From the NCBI GenBank assembly GCA_029907465.1, contig JARYLV010000009.1, positions 1 to 60,194 of the forward strand: a DNA stretch of 60,194 nt, in the 5' to 3' direction. The notes under the pieces are model-generated. The model ran no database searches and was not told the DNA's origin. It saw only the letters and a list, made by a program, of their open reading frames with translations. The translations under genes and the position numbers were made by a program. Shown one piece after another: positions 165-50,368 of this stretch (the stretch's first letter is position 1; every line of letters starts with the position of its first letter). Source of the DNA: Methanomassiliicoccales archaeon. Its GTDB lineage: Archaea; Thermoplasmatota; Thermoplasmata; Methanomassiliicoccales; JACIVX01.

Positions 165-2375
165 ATGAGCCAGCAATCCAATTACATAAAAGATTTAATT
201 AATCATGATTATAGAGTATTGATTATTTTGCTGATCGAAGCGGGATTCCCTGACGCAAGAGTCATCGAAAAAACAAGTGGTGGTGAGGGAGTTTTATCGA
301 ATATTATCGATAGAATCAAAAAGGAATCCTTTTCTGGTTATGCTAGAATAGGTCTACGGCAACCACAGAGTGAATCAGAAGGTGTGATTCTCTTTGAAGC
401 TGGCGAGCCGATAGGTGCCCTATACGTCGACAGGAGGGGGCAGAATAACGCTGAGAAAATTTACAGGGGCGAGAGGGCACTGGAGTTCATTTTCGAGGAT
501 TCACAGTATTCAAACGCATCGATCTCCCTACATACTGGGTTAGACCCGAGGGATATTTTGAAGAGATTCGAGGGGGCTGAGATCAAGGGTTTCCAAGTCG
601 TACCCTCTTTTTCAACCCCACCACCATCAAAACCCGTCGACCTAAGTGTCCTCGCTGGTAACATGAATGCGGTCGCGAAGAAAATTGAAAGTTGGGCCCG
701 CGAAGGTTTCGTCGTGTCCCGATTGCTGGATATATATCTGGATGATCCGGATAAGGCTTCAAGAATTCTCCCGCATTTTGAGGCGAATGTCGAAAGGGCG
801 AGAGCTCTTATCGAGCGTCTACGTTTTCTGAATAAGGTAGGGATCGAAAGGGAAGTCGAATCAATCCTCCGGAAAGCGATGGATCCTGAACGGATTGAGG
901 AGGCTGAAATTGAATTCGATCTTCTCGCAAAGAGGATAGAGAGATCAGAAAAGGAGAAGCTTGCGGAGAAAGAGATCCGCCTCGATATTGAGAGGAAGAA
1001 ACAGAACGAGCGGATCGATCACGTCTATGACCTCATCCTCCAGTATCATAAGATGAGGGCTCTCGGCACGGAGAAAAGGGCGAGATGTCCGAAATGCGGT
1101 GAGGTCTTAGATCGTGATGGTTTCTGCTCAAAATGCAACGAGTTCGTTACGCAAAAACCTCAATATGGAAGGGCGATTAACCCCCGTTACACTTTTTCAC
1201 AGTTTGTCGTAGGTCACAGCAATAGGTTTGCAGTTGCTGCGGCGAAAGCCGTCGCGAGCAACCCAGGAACCGCATACAATCCTCTTTTCATTTACAGCAG
1301 ATCTGGTCTGGGAAAAACTCACCTCTTGCATGCGATCGGTAACGAGATTCTCGAGAGGCATCAGAATCTATTGGTTATTTACACCTCAATGGAAAAATTC
1401 GAAACAGAGCTCATCGAGGCAATATCGTTGAACAAAGTAGAAGAATTTCGAAAAGCCCACTCGAAAGTTGACGTGCTCTTGATCGATGATGTGCAATTTA
1501 TTGCTGGCAGAGAGCGAACGCAGGAAGAGCTATTCCAGATCTTTAACGATCTCCTTGAGAATGAAAGGCAGATTGTGCTCGCTTCTGACCGGTTGCCGAA
1601 GGAGATCCCATCGTTATCAGAGAGACTTCTGACACGCTTTGAATCCGGACTTATTGCGGATATTCAGCCGCCTGATTACGAAACACGCGTCGCGATCCTA
1701 GAAAAGAAGGTGAGGGAAGAGCGAATCGCTGTGCCGAAAGAGGTACTTGAGTTCATTGCAAATGTCTGCAGGGACAATGTGAGGCAGCTCGAAGGTGGCC
1801 TCAACAGGATCGTTGCGTTCTCTTCGCTCATGCGCACCGACATAGACCTCGCACTCGCGAAAGAGGTCTTGAGTCACGAAGCAGAAGGGATGCGCATCAA
1901 AGAATTCAAATTCGACCTCGCCGGCGGTCAAAGTTATTTAGTCGAAGAGCCGAAACCTGAGGTTGCGCACAGAGCGTTCGTTTCAAAGGTCCAGGAGGGC
2001 TACAAAGGGCTCGCTATCACAAGGGGGCACCCGAGGAACCTTGCCGGTAAGCTGGGACAACTCCAAGCCACAATTTATTGGCTCACAGACCGCGAATCAA
2101 CTGTAGTACAGACCTTACCGCCGTCCCTGGAAAGAATCATGCTCGTGATCGAAGAGTTTATCAGAACGAATGAAAAATGCGTCATTCTTCTTGACGATAT
2201 CCAGTATTTGATCAGCAACACGACCTTTGAGGGAATCGTTAGGTTCATCAGAAGCGTTGTCGATGAGATCTCAGAGACCCCTTCAATTTTTGTCGTCTCG
2301 GTTAATGAGGAGAGCCTTAGCCCACAGGATAGATCGATCCTGGAGAGGGAAATGGAAGTCCTCAAGACCTCCTGA
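165..2375 (+). CDS. DnaA-type AAA+ ATPase with zinc ribbon and C-terminal DUF835 domain
   Basis: The 736-residue protein has four parts. Residues 20-140 resemble the DUF4388/DUF2226 type of small sensory domain. Residues 160-300 are charged and helical. A zinc ribbon has CPKC at 308-311 and CSKC at 321-324. Residues 340-570 are a clear bacterial DnaA ATPase: SGLGKTHLL at 380-388, the Walker B stretch LLIDDVQF, a TQEELF helix, RLLTRF with a box VII-type arginine, and the sensor 2 stretch VRQLEGGLNR. Residues 586-733 match DUF835, known from archaeal signalling proteins. DnaA domain IV, which reads DnaA boxes, is absent. The first Walker A glycine is a serine (SRSGLGKT), so ATP binding may be altered. 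The stop codon abuts the stop of the converging neighbour with no spacer. I infer an ATP-driven regulator or assembly factor rather than a classical initiator. No clear ribosome-binding site marks the start. Confidence 0.85.
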   Translation: MSQQSNYIKDLINHDYRVLIILLIEAGFPDARVIEKTSGGEGVLSNIIDRIKKESFSGYARIGLRQPQSESEGVILFEAGEPIGALYVDRRGQNNAEKIYRGERALEFIFEDSQYSNASISLHTGLDPRDILKRFEGAEIKGFQVVPSFSTPPPSKPVDLSVLAGNMNAVAKKIESWAREGFVVSRLLDIYLDDPDKASRILPHFEANVERARALIERLRFLNKVGIEREVESILRKAMDPERIEEAEIEFDLLAKRIERSEKEKLAEKEIRLDIERKKQNERIDHVYDLILQYHKMRALGTEKRARCPKCGEVLDRDGFCSKCNEFVTQKPQYGRAINPRYTFSQFVVGHSNRFAVAAAKAVASNPGTAYNPLFIYSRSGLGKTHLLHAIGNEILERHQNLLVIYTSMEKFETELIEAISLNKVEEFRKAHSKVDVLLIDDVQFIAGRERTQEELFQIFNDLLENERQIVLASDRLPKEIPSLSERLLTRFESGLIADIQPPDYETRVAILEKKVREERIAVPKEVLEFIANVCRDNVRQLEGGLNRIVAFSSLMRTDIDLALAKEVLSHEAEGMRIKEFKFDLAGGQSYLVEEPKPEVAHRAFVSKVQEGYKGLAITRGHPRNLAGKLGQLQATIYWLTDRESTVVQTLPPSLERIMLVIEEFIRTNEKCVILLDDIQYLISNTTFEGIVRFIRSVVDEISETPSIFVVSVNEESLSPQDRSILEREMEVLKTS

Positions 2376-20420: not shown

Positions 20421-23051
20421 TCATTCCTCCGACGCCAGCTTATAGTAGCCTGGTGAAGGCGAATAGATCTCGCCAGCCGTGCTCAATCGTTTCAAAAGGA
20501 GTCTCACCCTGTCCTCGGGTATCCCCTCCCTATCCGCGGCCTCGACGAGCGTTTCAACAGGGACTCCTTTTCTCGGATCCGAGAGATCGGAAATCAGCTT
20601 CCTCAGCACACCGATCTGCTCGCGCTGCGACTTGCTCGTGCCCGTCGTGATTATATCAATGTCCAGTCTCCCCGCTTCTCCGGCAATCTTTCTTAAGTAG
20701 TACTCAACGATCCTCACAGCGCGGTGTGCATCCTCCGCAGTGACGAGGGGGCTCAGCCTCGCGCGCGCACTCGCCTCGGAAAGGCGGATGAAGGCCTCGA
20801 GCTGTCTCGCGGTGATAGGGACTGAGGCACCCTCGCCCTCCCCCTGCTTCCTGATCTGGAGGTAGTAGTCGTGGATGATTTTCATAGCCTCATCCGTCAG
20901 CACTGGTACGAAGCGCTTCGAGTACGCGATGTACTTCCTGAAGAAATCCCTCGAAAAGACTGGCGTGAGCTCCTGGCTATCAGCCATGATCTGATTGATC
21001 TTAATCTCTTTAATCTCGCTCAGGTCTTTATATTTCCTGATCTCACCCCACCGGTGCGCTTTCAGTATGTGATTGGCAATCTTCGCATCGAGGTCTGCAT
21101 CTGGCTTATCGGTCATCGCGAAAATGAGATCAAACCTCGACAAAAGAGCAGGCGGGAGGTTAATCTGGTCGGCAATGTAATTGTGCTCCTCAAATCGGCC
21201 GTATTTTGGGTTAGCTGCGCCGAGAATTGCGCATCGGCACTGCAACCTCGCCGTGATCCCCGCCTTTGCGACCGTCACCGTTTGACTTTCCATTGCCTCG
21301 TGCATCGCACTCCGGTCATGCTCTTCCATCTTATCGAGCTCATCGATCGCCGCAATTCCTTTGTCAGCGAGGACGAGGGCTCCAGCCTCCAAAGTCCAAC
21401 GGCCCTCGCCGAATTCGTCCTTGACTGCTGCAGCTGTCAACCCGGCTGCAGACGACCCCTTTCCCGACGCGTAAATACCCCGGGGGGCGAGCTCGGACAT
21501 GTAGCGCAGCAACTGGCTGTTATGCGAAATGATGCCGTTCGCAATGAAGTTGTGCGTCCCCTCGACCTCAATATCATAGACCCATTCGTCCTCAGCCTTG
21601 ATCTTTTCAATAGACACAATTTGATCCCAAGAAAGCCCCCTCGCATAGCCAATTGATTCATCAGGTCCTATTTTCCCCCGCCCCTCTGCAACTGCGATGT
21701 ACCTCCCGACATCAAGTTTTATGATGCTACGTGGCTGCACCCGCGGGCCGTTCTGTACGAAGAGTGGGTGGGTTGGGGTCGCGGTTAACGTCTTGCCGCT
21801 AGCGGTCGTCACACGAAGGAGGTAATCTGGCGACTGCCGCTTCCATACTCTGACTGCCTTTCCTTCCTCGATGACCCCGCGATGCGAAAATGTGAGAACC
21901 GCCAAATCTGTCTCAGCGTAGACCCCATCATCGATTTCCACTGGATTCGTTCTTGCTAGTACTTCCTCTACGACATCCCCGATCTTTCTCCTCGTCCCAT
22001 CGCTCAATGTAATTTCAGTCTCATAGGTCACGCACTTCGCAACACCAGGATCGCCGACGAGGAGGATGTGGATATCGCCCCTGACCCTCGTGCCGTCCTC
22101 GAGTTGTTTCGGCACACCGCCAAAAAGCTGGAGGGCGATCGCCTCCTTCTCAATTTCATAGCCATAGATCGCTGGTGAGATCGATTTAACGATCTTCTCA
22201 AAAATATCGGGGCTCCTCGCCTGCCGTATAATTTCTTGCTCGTCCTCCTCGCTAATCGTGATCTCCTCGTATTCGTGTTGCTGAAATTCCACGGAGTTAA
22301 TGTCAAGATTGATGTCGAAGAGCGTAGACTTGATCTGAGCGCCTTTTTGCACGGATCGCAACACGCCGTTGAGAATGACCCTGTCGCCTGGAGATATTTT
22401 GCCAGCGATGTCGTCTTCGAGATAGCCGATGAGCCTTTCCGGCTGAGCGCCCCCCCTCAGACCTTCTGGACTCTCCTGTATCTCAATCTTCTGGGTGTCA
22501 ACATAATGCGACTCTTCCGTCAACAACTTGAACTTTGTTGTGCTCGCGGTCCGACCGCATCCTCCCTGTTCCTTATAGCATTCGAGCGGTTCCTTAAAAT
22601 AAAGACCTTCTTGCGGTTCCCTAATAACCTGATTACAGCGCATGCATTGGAAAAGTGCACTCGTGATTTTAGGGCGGACTTCTGTCGCCTTCCTTACGAG
22701 ACCTTCGACAGAAATGAGCTTCCCGAGGTGCTTGCTGCGGAGCTTCCTGATCTCGATCCTGCTGTCCCTCGGAAGACCGATGATCCTCAGATGAATATCA
22801 ACGCCCTCCCTGCCAGGTGGGGTCATCTTTTTAATAGCCTGTTCTCCAGTCCAGAGCGTTTTGTGCGGGTGTTGGAGCAAATAGTCAGCGATGTCAGGAT
22901 CGAACTGGTCAATGTCAGAATATGAGACGAGGACGCTTCTCAACTCAGGGTACATGTCCGAGACTTCTTTGACCTTCAGTCTGTACTCTGTCGTCTCGAA
23001 GAATTCCTCCCACCTGGCGATAAGATCTTCATTCGTGTACTCGACCGGCAA
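20421..23051 (-). CDS. mcm: Replicative DNA helicase MCM, interrupted by an intein
   Basis: The 876-residue precursor contains a 704-residue MCM after removal of a 172-residue intein (residues 340-511). The N-terminal domain has a zinc finger with cysteines 136, 139, 158 and 165. The AAA+ core shows GDPGVAK joined after splicing to SQLLRYM (Walker A), GIAAIDELDKM (Walker B), AANPKYGRF (sensor 1) and LLSRFDLIF (arginine finger). A C-terminal winged helix ends in PSPGYYKL. MCM is the hexameric replication-fork helicase. The start is TTG with GGGAGGGA a few bases upstream. It leads an operon with the DUF424 and NMD3 genes and lies about 26 kb from the putative origin. Confidence 0.93.
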   Translation of the reverse strand: MPVEYTNEDLIARWEEFFETTEYRLKVKEVSDMYPELRSVLVSYSDIDQFDPDIADYLLQHPHKTLWTGEQAIKKMTPPGREGVDIHLRIIGLPRDSRIEIRKLRSKHLGKLISVEGLVRKATEVRPKITSALFQCMRCNQVIREPQEGLYFKEPLECYKEQGGCGRTASTTKFKLLTEESHYVDTQKIEIQESPEGLRGGAQPERLIGYLEDDIAGKISPGDRVILNGVLRSVQKGAQIKSTLFDINLDINSVEFQQHEYEEITISEEDEQEIIRQARSPDIFEKIVKSISPAIYGYEIEKEAIALQLFGGVPKQLEDGTRVRGDIHILLVGDPGVAKCVTYETEITLSDGTRRKIGDVVEEVLARTNPVEIDDGVYAETDLAVLTFSHRGVIEEGKAVRVWKRQSPDYLLRVTTASGKTLTATPTHPLFVQNGPRVQPRSIIKLDVGRYIAVAEGRGKIGPDESIGYARGLSWDQIVSIEKIKAEDEWVYDIEVEGTHNFIANGIISHNSQLLRYMSELAPRGIYASGKGSSAAGLTAAAVKDEFGEGRWTLEAGALVLADKGIAAIDELDKMEEHDRSAMHEAMESQTVTVAKAGITARLQCRCAILGAANPKYGRFEEHNYIADQINLPPALLSRFDLIFAMTDKPDADLDAKIANHILKAHRWGEIRKYKDLSEIKEIKINQIMADSQELTPVFSRDFFRKYIAYSKRFVPVLTDEAMKIIHDYYLQIRKQGEGEGASVPITARQLEAFIRLSEASARARLSPLVTAEDAHRAVRIVEYYLRKIAGEAGRLDIDIITTGTSKSQREQIGVLRKLISDLSDPRKGVPVETLVEAADREGIPEDRVRLLLKRLSTAGEIYSPSPGYYKLASEE
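21519..22034 (-). other. Mini-intein inside the MCM P-loop
   Basis: The inserted segment starts with cysteine (CVTYETEITLSDG, block A). It has a block B TATPTHPLF with the conserved T-x-x-H, a block F VYDIEVEGTHNFIANG, and ends IISHN followed by serine as the +1 residue. All residues needed for protein splicing are present. At 172 residues it has no room for a LAGLIDADG homing endonuclease, so it is a minimal, probably immobile intein. It splits Walker A between Lys and Ser, so the helicase cannot bind ATP until splicing occurs. Confidence 0.92.
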
Positions 23052-31983: not shown

Positions 31984-33279
31984 ATGAAACCCGTTTTGCA
32001 GGTCGCCCTTGACCTGATGCACCTCAAGAGAGCGATTGAAATTGGGAAAGAAGCGGTCGAAGGTGGAGCGGACTGGATCGAGGCGGGGACGCCTTTGATC
32101 AAAAGCGAGGGTGCCGAGTGCCTGAGAGCACTCAAGCGTGAATTTCCTGGTCGCGTGCTCGTCGCGGACATGAAGACGATGGACGTCGGGGGATTCGAGG
32201 TTGAAATAGCGGCAAAGGCAGGCGCTGATGTCGTGACAGTCATGGGACTCTCTGACGACGGGACGATTTCCGAGGCGGTCCTCACTGGTCGCAAGTATGG
32301 GACGAAGATCATGGTCGACCTCATGAATGTCGAGGACAAAGTGAAAAGGGCGAAGGAGGTGGAGTCACTCGGCGCCTCTTTCGTATGCCTCCACGTCGGC
32401 ATCGACGAACAGATGCGCGGCGGAAAGTCGCCCCTCGAGATGGTCCGGGCGGTGTCGGAGGCAACGAACATTCCAGTTGCCGTCGCTGGCGGGATCACTT
32501 CCGAGACAGCCGCCTCATTCCTGAAAGCCGGCGCTTCGATCATCATCGTCGGCGGGGGGATTATCAAGGCGGAGGACGTGAGGGCGGCCGCGAAAAGAAT
32601 TAAGGAGGCGATCGAGAAGGGCGAGTCGATCGCCTCTGACCTCTCAAGAAAATACACGGCCGAGGAACTCTTCGAAGCGTTTTCACGCGTCTCGACGCCG
32701 AATATCGCCGACGCAGCGCACAAGAGGGGGGTCATGAAGGGCATTGTCCCGAGAATAAGACACGGCACCAAGATGGTCGGTCGGGCGCTGACCGTCCAGA
32801 CATCGAAGGGGGACTGGGCTAAGCCCGTGGAGGCGATCGACCGCGCGCAAAAGGGCGATGTCATCGTCGTCGATGCTGGCGGAAGCGACATCGCGGTCTG
32901 GGGGGAGCTCGCCTCCTGGAGCTGTAAAGTCAAGGGGATTGCTGGTATTGTCGTCGACGGTGCCGTCAGGGATATCGACACGATTATCGAGATCGGTTTT
33001 CCCTGTTTCTCGAGGTATGTGACACCGGAAGCCGGCGAGGCAAAAGGATTTGGGGGGATCGGACTCGAGATTGTCTGCGGTGGACAGGTCGTCCGCACAG
33101 GCGACTGGATAATTGGGGACGAAAGTGGCGTCATCGTCGTACCACAGGAACACGCGGTCGAGATCGCGAATCGCGCTATCGATGTACTAGAAAGGGAGAA
33201 TAGAATCAGAGAGGAGATCAAAAGGGGGAGAACACTTTCAAGCGTGCAGGAGTTGGAGAAGTGGGAAAAGGTACAGTGA
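31984..33279 (+). CDS. Fused 3-hexulose-6-phosphate synthase and RraA-like protein
   Basis: Residues 1-215 are a hexulose-6-phosphate synthase barrel: LQVALDLMHLKRAIEIGKEAV, GADWIEAGTPLIKSEG, VADMKTMDVGGFE and AVAGGIT. Residues 225-431 are an RraA/MenG-like domain: STPNIADAAHKRG, GRALTVQTSKGDW, GDVIVVDAGG, GIAGIVVDGAVRD and WIIGDESGVIVVP. HPS condenses formaldehyde with ribulose-5-phosphate; in archaea the reverse reaction makes ribulose-5-phosphate from hexulose phosphate. The RraA-like half is more like metal-dependent aldolases than an RNase inhibitor. The fusion is known in other archaea. A TATA-like AATTTATTA lies about 30 bases upstream. It overlaps the PHP gene. Confidence 0.88.
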   Translation: MKPVLQVALDLMHLKRAIEIGKEAVEGGADWIEAGTPLIKSEGAECLRALKREFPGRVLVADMKTMDVGGFEVEIAAKAGADVVTVMGLSDDGTISEAVLTGRKYGTKIMVDLMNVEDKVKRAKEVESLGASFVCLHVGIDEQMRGGKSPLEMVRAVSEATNIPVAVAGGITSETAASFLKAGASIIIVGGGIIKAEDVRAAAKRIKEAIEKGESIASDLSRKYTAEELFEAFSRVSTPNIADAAHKRGVMKGIVPRIRHGTKMVGRALTVQTSKGDWAKPVEAIDRAQKGDVIVVDAGGSDIAVWGELASWSCKVKGIAGIVVDGAVRDIDTIIEIGFPCFSRYVTPEAGEAKGFGGIGLEIVCGGQVVRTGDWIIGDESGVIVVPQEHAVEIANRAIDVLERENRIREEIKRGRTLSSVQELEKWEKVQ

Positions 33280-46800: not shown

Positions 46801-47048
46801 AAGAATCTTATATAAAATAGATTTTGTAATAAATCGGACGATCGTTCTTATAAGGGGGAGACCCCTTTATTTCCACTGGAAATATGTCTCCCACGGCGTA
46901 CACCACGTGCAACTCCACGAGTTTTAACTTTTGAACGACTAGGTTTAATATCGTCGAGTGTTAAGCCCCTGGCAACTTTTCGCAATATGTAGAGACATTA
47001 ACAGTGCCATCGTAAATAATAGCATTGACTGTTATTTCTCGAGCTGAG
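46801..47048. other. Putative origin left arm: AT-rich stretch plus ORB-like element
   Basis: The first 35 bases are strongly AT-rich (TTATATAAAATAG type). They are followed by an ORB-like element at 46861-46883 whose G-run end points toward the AT-rich part. The left part could be a duplex-unwinding element. An imperfect hairpin ATAAGGGG-GAGA-CCCCTTTAT straddles the element's G-run. Confidence 0.45.
46861..46883 (-). promoter_or_regulatory. ORB-like origin recognition box 1
   Basis: Read on the minus strand, the site has the dyad TTTCCAGTGGAAAT, then AAA and GGGGT. This is the layout of the archaeal ORB (dyad TTCCAGTGGAAAC, short spacer, GGGGT). I know the consensus from Pyrococcus, Sulfolobus and haloarchaeal origins; the match here is nearly complete. 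Confidence 0.75.
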
Positions 47049-48167
47049 TCAAGAGGCCAGATAGCTTGTTTCTGTGACGTGCCGAATATCTGATTTTAAA
47101 TGATCAAAAGCTTCAAAGTAGCCCTTGATTCTCTCAATAAGGGATTCGATTCCAGCTTTTGTTGAAGCGGAGACGGCAACGATATTATTTGATTGGATTC
47201 TATTTGAAACAAACCTCATCCTTTCCTCAACCTCTAGAGAGTCTAACTTGTCGATTTTATTCAGAACGACAACCACTTTTCTAAAGTCTACATCGGGTAG
47301 CAGGATTTTCATCGATGCATTGAGTTTTCTTTCTATCTCAGAAATTGGATCTGAGATATCTAAAACAAGTAACACAAGGTCAGCAGCGAAAATCTCATCA
47401 ATCGTGTTTCTAAAAGATTCGATAAGAAAAACAGGAAGATTATCCAGAAAACCAATTGTATCTATTAAAATAAGATCCTCCTTGATATTCGCAATACGCC
47501 CTCTCAGCGGTTTCAATGTGGAGAACATTTTCGGCTCAACTATAGTATCTTTTTTAGTAAGGCTAATGAATAGGCTCGACTTGCCTGCGTTCGTATAACC
47601 AGCTAAAGAGACGACTGGCGGCCTAATTTTCTTTTTGAATCCTATATAGAGATTGTTTTCTCTCAGTTTTTTCAGCTCATCATCAATTTTTCTTATCCTC
47701 TTCTTAATAAGATCGTAGTAAACCGCCGCTTCGTAGTCGCCGCTAGAAAAATGACCTGCCCTCTCCCCTTTTTTCGTCCGGTGGATCCAATCCCTAATGA
47801 ATGGAATTTCATACTTAAGTCTGGCCTTCTCGACCTGTAACTTTGCTTCTTTGCTATTGGCACGACTTGCAAAGATCTCGAGAACTAAGCTCACTCGATC
47901 TATGCATTTGATATTCAACATCCTTTCGAGATTGTATTGTTGTGACGGTTTTAGATCCCCATTAACTATGATCGTATCTACGGCCCTGCATCGAAGAACG
48001 GTCCTGACCTCGTCGATCTTTCCTTTTCCTATGAACGTCGACGAATCGGGGATATTCCTACGTTGAATAATCTCATAAATCACTTCATATCCCGCAGATG
48101 CTGCAAGTTCTTCAAGTTCTGCGACTTTTTCATTAGTTGTAATGATCGCTGCCGTTTGCCAACTCAT
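47049..48167 (-). CDS. hflX: GTPase HflX
   Basis: A 372-residue ribosome-associated GTPase. The N-terminal HflX domain has STFIGKGKIDEV and the glycine-rich linker region is reduced. Then come the helical stretch QVEKARLKYEIPFIRDWIHRTKKGERAG and the G domain with GYTNAGKSSLF (G1), LIDTIGFLDNLP (G3) and VLNKIDKLD (G4). HflX splits or rescues stalled ribosomes. The ATG at 48167 is preferred over the TTG at 48173: AATATT near 48198 predicts transcription from about 48172. It lies between the two ORB-like sites. Confidence 0.9.
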   Translation of the reverse strand: MSWQTAAIITTNEKVAELEELAASAGYEVIYEIIQRRNIPDSSTFIGKGKIDEVRTVLRCRAVDTIIVNGDLKPSQQYNLERMLNIKCIDRVSLVLEIFASRANSKEAKLQVEKARLKYEIPFIRDWIHRTKKGERAGHFSSGDYEAAVYYDLIKKRIRKIDDELKKLRENNLYIGFKKKIRPPVVSLAGYTNAGKSSLFISLTKKDTIVEPKMFSTLKPLRGRIANIKEDLILIDTIGFLDNLPVFLIESFRNTIDEIFAADLVLLVLDISDPISEIERKLNASMKILLPDVDFRKVVVVLNKIDKLDSLEVEERMRFVSNRIQSNNIVAVSASTKAGIESLIERIKGYFEAFDHLKSDIRHVTETSYLAS

Positions 48168-48282
48168 ATTCAAATCTCTTAGCTTTTTTAGGAAATATTA
48201 ATCAATATCGTTATTTGAAGTTATTTGATTGAAGTGGGGTAGCTAAAGCCCGCACAAAGCCTGGAAATATCCAATGTTCTAA

Positions 48283-48765
48283 TCACATCTCTTCACTACA
48301 CTTTATGTCCAGTTCAAAGTATCCTGTCTTCGGATTTAAACGCCGTCCTAGTTCTATCTTTGTAAACTTTCTGATCAATACTTCATTAAGTACGTTAACC
48401 GTCCCCTTAAAAAGATGTCCCCCAAATGCTTCGAATTGATCGCTAGAGACAGAACAGTGAAGATGTATTGGTACCTCTGTACCAATTGTTATTGAACCCG
48501 ATAGGGACAATAATTCATGTGGTTTTTCAAAATATTTTTTGATGTATTCTTTTCCTGTGAAGTAGCCAAGGGTGAACTCCCTTAGTATACCCACCCCGCC
48601 AAGAACCCAACCGTTCTTTACATCATATCTCTTTGACACTTCAATTAGGCTTGAATGCACATCCTCGCCGTCCTCAAGCTTAACAATAATAATATCTTCT
48701 TCGTGGCTGCAAATCAAAATTTCCCCTCCTATTTTTAAATCTAATAACAGATTTTTAGTATTCAT
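48283..48765 (-). CDS. PPC/DUF296 domain protein
   Basis: A 160-residue PPC (plants and prokaryotes conserved, DUF296) domain protein: ILICSHEEDIIIVKLEDGEDVHSSL, NGWVLGGVGILREFTLGYF, LLSLSGSIT, IHLHCSVSSDQFEAFGGHLFKG. In plants the domain is linked to AT-hook DNA binding; prokaryotic single-domain forms are trimers of unknown role. Histidines in HLHC and GGHL fit the metal site seen in this fold. No AT hook is present. Its place inside the origin region is notable but proves no function. Confidence 0.85.
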   Translation of the reverse strand: MNTKNLLLDLKIGGEILICSHEEDIIIVKLEDGEDVHSSLIEVSKRYDVKNGWVLGGVGILREFTLGYFTGKEYIKKYFEKPHELLSLSGSITIGTEVPIHLHCSVSSDQFEAFGGHLFKGTVNVLNEVLIRKFTKIELGRRLNPKTGYFELDIKCSEEM

Positions 48766-48908
48766 AATTTCGTGGCATCAACCTTCTGCATCCAAATCCT
48801 ACACATGAAGTTGGTAATTCCGATTCTCCGTTAAGCAGTCATGCATTAATTTATGTTGCCAGATGAGAAAAAACCCTATACGAATTGTCGGGATCGGCCG
48901 AGGCTAAA

Positions 48909-48930
48909 CTTCCACAGGAAACGAAGGGGT
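48909..48930 (+). promoter_or_regulatory. ORB-like origin recognition box 2
   Basis: Plus-strand dyad TTCCACAGGAAAC is followed by GAA and GGGGT, matching the archaeal ORB pattern except for the dyad centre (CA instead of GT) and one missing spacer base. It lies about 190 bases upstream of orc1/cdc6 and is oriented opposite to box 1, both G-runs facing outward. Confidence 0.75.
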
Positions 48931-49089
48931 TGGGCCGAACAAGATCAACAGCCAGCAACAACATTTTATTGAACCAGTGTTCCGGTCATTTGTGTGTGCA
49001 AAATAAAAATAAAGTTCTTGTAATCAACCAACCTATTCATTCCGGTAATCGGATCTCGATATGATCTCCAATCGAAATGAAGGGGTGGG

Positions 49090-49097
49090 ATATTTTT
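49090..49097 (+). promoter_or_regulatory. TATA box of orc1/cdc6
   Basis: ATATTTTT is centred about 25 bases before the ATG at 49118, suggesting a leaderless mRNA and supporting that start over the ATG at 49061, which would lie upstream of the promoter. Confidence 0.45.
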
Positions 49098-49117
49098 GTT
49101 CCCGCACCTTCAGCCAT

Positions 49118-50368
49118 ATGGGGGGAGTGCCCTTGGATGAGAACATCTTTCAACCGTATCTCAAGTCAAAGTCATTATTTAAAAGAAATCGAGAGATCTT
49201 ACGACCATCGTATATACCAGATGAACTTCCTCATAGACAGCAACAGATCAGCCAATTGGCAGCAGTTCTCGCTACAGCTTTGCGGGGCGATAGGCCTTCG
49301 AACGTGTTAATCTTTGGGAAAACGGGAACGGGAAAAACAGCATGCGTGAAGTATCTGGGAAATGAGATTAGGAAGGCCGACGCCACATCAAACCGCGTTA
49401 ACTTTTTCTATATGAATTGCGAAGTCGTTGACACTCAATACGGAGTACTCCAGAACATCGGGAACAGATTGATCAGCGATTTCGGTGAGAGAATTCCGTT
49501 TACTGGTTGGAGCACAGAAAGACTCTATAACATTTTTCGGGAGAGAATCGAAGAGGAGGGGAAAGTCAACATCATTGTTTTGGACGAAATCGATAAATTG
49601 GTTTACAAAAGCGGTGACGATATTCTCTATCACTTGTCAAAGATAAACGATGACCTCGTGAAAGCCAAGGTATCGCTAATCGGCATCTCTAACGACCTCA
49701 CTTTCACTGAATTCCTCGACCCCCGCGTCAAAAGCCGTCTTGGCGAAGAAAAAATGGTCTTTCCACCGTATAACGCTGAGCAACTACAAGACATACTCAA
49801 GCAGAGGGCCGCACTTGCGTTCGAAGAGGGGGTCTTGGAGTCAAGTGTTATCCCGCTTTGCGCAGCCCTAGCGGCACAGGAACACGGTGATGCGCGGCGT
49901 GCACTCGATCTATTGAGGGTTGCAGCAGAGATCGCAGAACGCAACCGCGATGATAAGATCACAGAAGCGCATGTATACAAAGCAAAAAACAAAATCGAGC
50001 TCGATTGTGTTACAGAGGCGATTAGGACGTTGCCAACGCAGTCGAAACTCGTGCTCATGAGTATTGTAGTAAACGAAGAGAAAGGTCGGGAAAGGCTTAC
50101 GACAGGGGACGTTTACGAGGTTTATAGAGAGTTGTGTAGGGCCGTTGGTGTAAGTGTGCTGACGCAGAGGAGGATCACTGACCTTATCTCGGAACTAGAC
50201 ATGCTCGGTATCATCCATGCCCGCGTCAAATCGTTCGGTAGAGGTGGTCGGACCAAAGAAATTGAGCTGAGTGTTCCGCCTCATGACGCAAAGAAAATAC
50301 TGGAGGAGGACGAGATGCTCCAGGGCCTCAAGAACTTTAAACCCAAGACTCAAACTACGTTGATTTAA
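49118..50368 (+). CDS. cdc6: Replication initiator Orc1/Cdc6
   Basis: A 416-residue AAA+ initiator: YIPDELPHRQQQISQLA, Walker A LIFGKTGTGKTACVKYL, Walker B NIIVLDEIDKLVYKSGDDILYHL, sensor 1 LIGISNDLTFTE, the arginine stretch DPRVKSRLGEE, sensor 2 HGDARRALDLLRVA, and a C-terminal winged helix with LTQRRITDLISELDMLGII. It binds ORB elements, opens the origin and recruits MCM. Two ORB-like boxes lie upstream. The ATG at 49118 fits a leaderless mRNA. Confidence 0.94.
   Translation: MGGVPLDENIFQPYLKSKSLFKRNREILRPSYIPDELPHRQQQISQLAAVLATALRGDRPSNVLIFGKTGTGKTACVKYLGNEIRKADATSNRVNFFYMNCEVVDTQYGVLQNIGNRLISDFGERIPFTGWSTERLYNIFRERIEEEGKVNIIVLDEIDKLVYKSGDDILYHLSKINDDLVKAKVSLIGISNDLTFTEFLDPRVKSRLGEEKMVFPPYNAEQLQDILKQRAALAFEEGVLESSVIPLCAALAAQEHGDARRALDLLRVAAEIAERNRDDKITEAHVYKAKNKIELDCVTEAIRTLPTQSKLVLMSIVVNEEKGRERLTTGDVYEVYRELCRAVGVSVLTQRRITDLISELDMLGIIHARVKSFGRGGRTKEIELSVPPHDAKKILEEDEMLQGLKNFKPKTQTTLI

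Follow-up and report, generated by a model that had tools for sequence, protein, structure and literature searches.

We describe a gene from a Methanomassiliicoccales archaeon (phylum Thermoplasmatota) that encodes a genuine DnaA-type AAA+ domain III, an assignment supported by profiles, a structure model, synteny and trees. The analysis suggests that archaea have put a bacterial replication motor to a different use. The presence of DnaA is read as a sign of bacterial replication initiation, and archaea are regarded as having none. An archaeal family that is widespread and has the motor of DnaA without its initiator domains implies that this motor is portable, and makes the action of the DnaA core apart from origins testable. 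Open-literature searches on archaeal DnaA, DnaA with DUF835, Thermoplasmatota and DUF2226 returned no description of such proteins, most subscription journals being outside their scope, and a Methanomassiliicoccales genome paper contains no occurrence of DnaA (PMC4153887); this archaeal variant of the DnaA family is apparently undescribed in the open literature searched.

The gene lies in a stretch of 60,194 nucleotides (the window). Its open reading frame starts with ATG and translates to 736 residues, and its features, with those of the gene that follows, are as follows.

165..2375, + strand: whole gene, encoding N-domain, helical linker, zinc ribbon, DnaA domain III and DUF835 (open reading frame, Pfam, structure model)
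216..614, + strand: N-terminal domain, DUF2226-like, alpha/beta, residues 18-150 (modelled with confidence, pLDDT 86.6)
642..1064, + strand: helical linker, residues 160-300 (modelled helices 169-180, 195-220 and 241-299)
1086..1136, + strand: zinc ribbon CPKC...CSKC, residues 308-324 (motif search)
1173..1880, + strand: DnaA domain III, AAA+ core and lid, residues 337-572 (Pfam, structure matches, alignment, model)
1296..1319, + strand: Walker A, SRSGLGKT, residues 378-385 (alignment)
1476..1490, + strand: Walker B, LLIDD, residues 438-442 (alignment)
1623..1637, + strand: box VII, RLLTR, with R487 and R491 (alignment)
1782..1784, + strand: sensor 2, Arg540 (alignment)
1926..2372, + strand: DUF835, inactivated-KaiC type, residues 588-736, where DnaA has domain IV (Pfam, model; PMC5847659)
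2376..3473, - strand: convergent neighbour with abutting stop codon, double zinc ribbon and coiled coil (domain search, synteny)

Profile searches assign the ATPase to DnaA rather than to another AAA+ clade, in agreement with an earlier note that recognized the core from the sequence and named such searches as a way to refute it. Pfam Bac_DnaA (PF00308) matches residues 339-498 with an E-value of 4.1e-64, far above its cut-off and over nearly all 162 profile positions. The closest solved structure is B. subtilis DnaA domain III (8bv3, E 8e-80), followed by T. maritima and A. aeolicus DnaA. In the structure library, sequence matches to Hda (1e-12) and DnaI/DnaC (1e-5) were far weaker, so no other AAA+ clade competes; Hda models also scored far under cut-off against the 736-residue protein, and these profile and structure scores rule out membership of the Hda, DnaC/DnaI or Orc/Cdc6 clades. 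In an AlphaFold2 model made with 40 sequences (mean pLDDT 84.9), the core superposes on 8bv3 with a TM score of 0.95 and an rmsd of 1.4 A, at 56% identity. The window protein has Walker A, Walker B and sensor 1, the two arginines of box VII and the arginine of sensor 2. We take R487 and R491 to correspond to E. coli DnaA R281 and R285, the intersubunit arginine finger, and Arg540 to correspond to R334 of sensor 2. The first Walker A glycine is indeed Ser, as the earlier note had read it. Gly and Ser alternate across the family, ruling out the idea that Ser inactivates Walker A; it is a common variant rather than a mark of inactivation.

In alignments, the Walker A Lys, Walker B, box VII and sensor 2 are retained in nearly all archaeal members, and the residues predicted to make oligomer contacts are retained in the window protein. 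The positions that contact single-stranded DNA (ISM) are poorly kept, and most DUF835-type members do not retain them. Retention of the ATP and intersubunit residues alongside poor retention of the single-stranded DNA contacts argues that ATP-driven oligomerization, not origin melting, is under selection. Among Methanomassiliicoccus-type genomes, sensor 2 Arg is missing in four of seven and the second box VII Arg in one of seven; both are missing from the copy of genome G028 (loci L068 and L018). At L101 (8442-9899, - strand), the DnaA core that is fused to DUF835 is very degenerate (138 bits) and has lost the sensor 2 Arg, an instance of motor decay in family f8.

Domain IV, which the earlier note proposed to have been replaced by DUF835, is absent, and DUF835 (PF05763) matches residues 602-730 at the C-terminus (1.6e-22; 80.2 bits against a curated cut-off of 33.1). 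No Pfam match to Bac_DnaA_C was found in the protein. Custom models of domains I and IV were made from ten bacterial DnaAs, with held-out bacterial DnaAs as controls. Both models recovered the controls, the domain IV model at 88 to 124 bits, and neither gave a credible match in any of the 77 collected archaeal DnaA-domain proteins, so a hidden domain I or IV is ruled out. At the front, the zinc ribbon reported in the earlier note is present, as the only CxxC...CxxC ribbon of the protein (at residue 308), and the "sensory-like" domain is better described as DUF2226-like, a match below cut-off (PF09987, 17.4 bits against 22; best E-value 0.0033). The DUF2226 profile reached E<=0.1 in the N-domains of 10 of 38 family members, with every score below the cut-off, and a fold search of the N-domain against the PDB gave no confident match (best E-value 0.02, TM 0.36). 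The window protein has no PCNA-binding (PIP) or beta-clamp motif, and DnaA boxes are not in excess in the window (5 sites against 3.2 expected by chance, without an origin-type cluster). Of the marks of a bacterial initiator, the protein has the domain III motifs and does not have domain I, domain IV or a DnaA-box cluster, and it does not show the combination that marks Hda, a clamp-binding motif with an AAA+ domain only. The NCBI equivalog model for DnaA (TIGR00362) nevertheless scores it at 351 bits against a cut-off of 343.9, while covering only profile positions 47-339 of 437. This above-cut-off match of a protein without the initiator domains is a mis-annotation trap, and a caution for annotators.

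A DnaA domain was found at E<=1e-20 in 40 of 390 sampled Thermoplasmatota genomes. One of these (G362, locus L050) has a true bacterial DnaA, as judged by its domain IV, leaving about 39. The earlier note considered a clade limited to one archaeal phylum. However, in the phylum of an Altiarchaeota-titled locus, 2 of 29 genomes have DnaA-domain proteins, one of them on a 1.39-Mb contig, without domain IV and without DUF835, so that the distribution is wider than one phylum. The domain order of the window protein does recur: N-domain, DnaA and DUF835 form the commonest architecture, in 58 of 77 archaeal proteins, some of which are cut by locus ends. It is accompanied by several others, namely a stand-alone coiled coil with DnaA, Fn3/TM with DnaA, and a giant coiled coil with DnaA and a double zinc ribbon. 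At L084 (7805-10423, - strand), a separate DUF835 gene directly follows a DnaA-domain gene, and the fusion seems to have been split. When 15 bacterial DnaAs are included in a careful tree, the DUF835-type cores of archaea group together (support 59/72), and two changes are needed with respect to a single archaeal clade of DnaA cores. Constraining all archaeal cores to one clade was not rejected under this narrow bacterial sampling (p-AU 0.63 and 0.82), and the constrained tree beat the free quick tree. The highest bacterial identity is to Bacillota, up to 58% with Clostridioides DnaA, which, with bacterial sampling this narrow, need not mark the donor lineage. No relative turned up when viral contigs were scanned, and phage and plasmid matches were annotated DnaA or unannotated DnaA-like sequences of less than 60% identity; on these searches a viral source was rejected.

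The archaeal protein resembles several known systems in part. It shares with bacterial DnaA (TIGR00362/PF00308) the domain III core and lid and all ATP-binding and intersubunit motifs, with 56% core identity to B. subtilis, but it lacks domains I and IV, has a DUF2226-like domain, a zinc ribbon and DUF835, and coexists with Orc1/Cdc6. Hda, a DnaA regulatory inactivator, likewise is a DnaA-like AAA+ protein without domain IV, but is much more distant (21-23% identity), and the archaeal protein differs in its fused domains and in having no clamp-binding motif. The helicase loaders DnaC and DnaI belong to the same broad AAA+ clade and act on a RecA-fold ring, as we propose for the archaeal protein, whereas their sequence match is weak (E ~1e-5) and their N-terminal domain is not found in it. 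Archaeal DUF835 signalling proteins have a C-terminal output domain of the same Pfam family, although their listed architectures are REC/PAS-DUF835, without an AAA+ motor (PMC5847659).

Gene context points to candidate partners. The convergent zinc-ribbon coiled-coil gene stays adjacent in families where all other neighbours differ. Among 61 Methanomassiliicoccales genomes, it occurs in 33 of the 34 with the gene and 3 of the 27 without, and a gene for a KaiC-like ATPase occurs in 31 and 3, respectively; gyrB is present in 59 of the 61 irrespective of the gene. The P-values for co-occurrence, 1e-12 for the zinc-ribbon neighbour and 1e-10 for the KaiC-like gene, overstate independence because the genomes are related, and three genomes retain both partners without the gene. 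In Methanomassiliicoccales the KaiC-like gene (at 38339-39037 of contig C14 in G000) is not adjacent, with gyrBA and thiC lying between, and in other families it is two genes from the DnaA-DUF835 gene (L085-L087, L095, L100). In other classes of the phylum, the DnaA-DUF835 gene abuts a Rad51/RecA-fold ATPase gene (L093), and an operon-like row has Fn3/TM-DnaA abutting genes for a KaiC-like ATPase and a HisKA_7TM-DUF835 sensor (L097, 6455-9954, - strand). Ras-like GTPase genes lie next door at L088, and at L210 DUF2226 is an adjacent same-strand gene (27.1 bits, above cut-off), the domain being fused, and weakly recognized, in Thermoplasmatota. The suggestion in the earlier note that the motor was rewired for signalling or assembly would fit these putative partners (KaiC-like ATPase, DUF835, DUF2226-like domain, Ras-like GTPase, 7TM-DUF835), as far as gene context indicates. 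DUF835 is an output domain of response regulators that has been termed inactivated KaiC (PMC5847659); its kinship with KaiC rests on that literature, since comparing our profiles of DUF835 and of the KaiC-like neighbour family gave a probability of 1%. At L085 (5157-13169, + strand), L086 and L100, a conserved row of KaiC-like ATPase and zinc-ribbon coiled-coil genes lies beside the DnaA-DUF835 gene, joined at L085 and L086 by a very large CARDB-repeat protein with zinc ribbons, and may represent one cell-surface or cytoskeletal system.

We tentatively propose, at slightly less than even confidence, that the protein is a non-initiator DnaA AAA+ switch that works with KaiC-like RecA-fold ATPases, the partner and the activity being inferred. 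Archaea would have acquired the DnaA core, without its domains I and IV, and placed it in a regulatory protein between an archaeal DUF2226-like input end and a DUF835 (dead KaiC-like) output end. On ATP binding, the cores may assemble into a stacked DnaA-type oligomer by way of the box VII arginines, aligning the DUF835 domains so that they could dock on the KaiC-like RecA-fold ATPase, whose own gene lies nearby throughout the class. The docked domains would then promote, cap or reset the KaiC-like ring until hydrolysis or the input domain ended the state, with the convergent zinc-ribbon coiled-coil protein as a likely scaffold of the same complex. Oligomerization, docking on a KaiC-like protein and the direction of control are predicted steps. 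A broader and more doubtful proposal is that archaea of at least two phyla have an old DnaA domain-III family of single origin that never initiates replication and acts on KaiC-like RecA-fold rings as an ATP switch or a loader. If this is true, handling of KaiC rings would mirror the action of DnaA and DnaC AAA+ proteins on the RecA-fold helicase DnaB.

The same locus also occurs without the motor, providing a natural experiment. The gene order gyrA-gyrB-thiC-[gene]-zinc-ribbon neighbour-AP endonuclease-type gene is common to genomes with long and short forms of the protein, the short form keeping the N-domain and DUF835 and lacking the zinc ribbon and AAA+ core. Because short forms are one clade (support 100) and every outgroup is long, a single, clean loss of the DnaA module from a gene that was otherwise kept is the simplest account of these sequences. 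That one sub-clade dropped the core and kept both ends indicates that the ends can work without the motor. One interpretation of this loss is that the captured ATPase is mainly a structural, oligomerizing or ATP-binding spacer that is slowly decaying, with function residing in the two ends. The arginine losses in Methanomassiliicoccus-type genomes and the degenerate copy at L101 are consistent with such a spacer, and in those genomes it is possible. For the family as a whole we think it rather unlikely: in many other families of the class the residues for catalysis and intersubunit contact hardly vary, and this constancy speaks for selection on an ATP-dependent function.

Alternatively, the protein could be a replication-linked regulator, similar to Hda or DnaC, whose targets near the archaeal origin would be Orc1/Cdc6, MCM or gyrase. 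The window does encode a normal Orc1/Cdc6 (49061-50368, + strand) and a normal MCM (20421-23051, - strand), as the earlier note had stated; the MCM carries an intein. Two ORB-like motifs (0.01 expected) lie at 46860-48931; together with Orc1/Cdc6 and a cumulative GC-skew minimum, these motifs put the likely chromosomal origin at about 47-51 kb of the same window. In the six Methanomassiliicoccales genomes that have the gene and the main orc1/cdc6 on a single contig (G000, G016, G018, G025, G027, G028), about 46-51 kb separate the two. In addition, gyrB and gyrA adjoin thiC beside the gene, Hda similarly lacks domain IV, and the zinc ribbon could bind nucleic acid. (In G028, two cdc6 genes lie about 68 kb apart on contig 21.) However, the gene is unlinked from gyrase in several other families of the class (L085-L087, L095, L100), a clade with the same synteny lost the DnaA core, and of the 61 genomes from the order 27 lack the gene, each of these having gyrB. 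The absence of clamp-binding motifs, of excess DnaA boxes and of domains I and IV, and the poor retention of ISM residues, likewise speak against a role in replication, which we judge unlikely. Bacterial contamination or a chimeric assembly might be suspected from the identity to Clostridioides DnaA and from the one genuine bacterial contaminant in the sample (L050), but has a negligible probability. The same locus with its neighbours recurs in more than ten independent genomes, the core is fused to archaeal DUF835 and is without domains I and IV, and archaeal MCM and Cdc6 are on the same contig; synteny across genomes and the fusions rule contamination out. The switch acting with KaiC-like ATPases is the reading that we prefer.

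Several minor observations concern other genes. GyrA of a relative (G002) also has an intein (L062, 14776-18513, + strand), and the GyrB frames of several relatives, at 817-1120 residues, are long enough for inserts. In the window, the gene at 31984-33279 (+ strand) fuses an OMP decarboxylase-type domain to an RraA-like domain.
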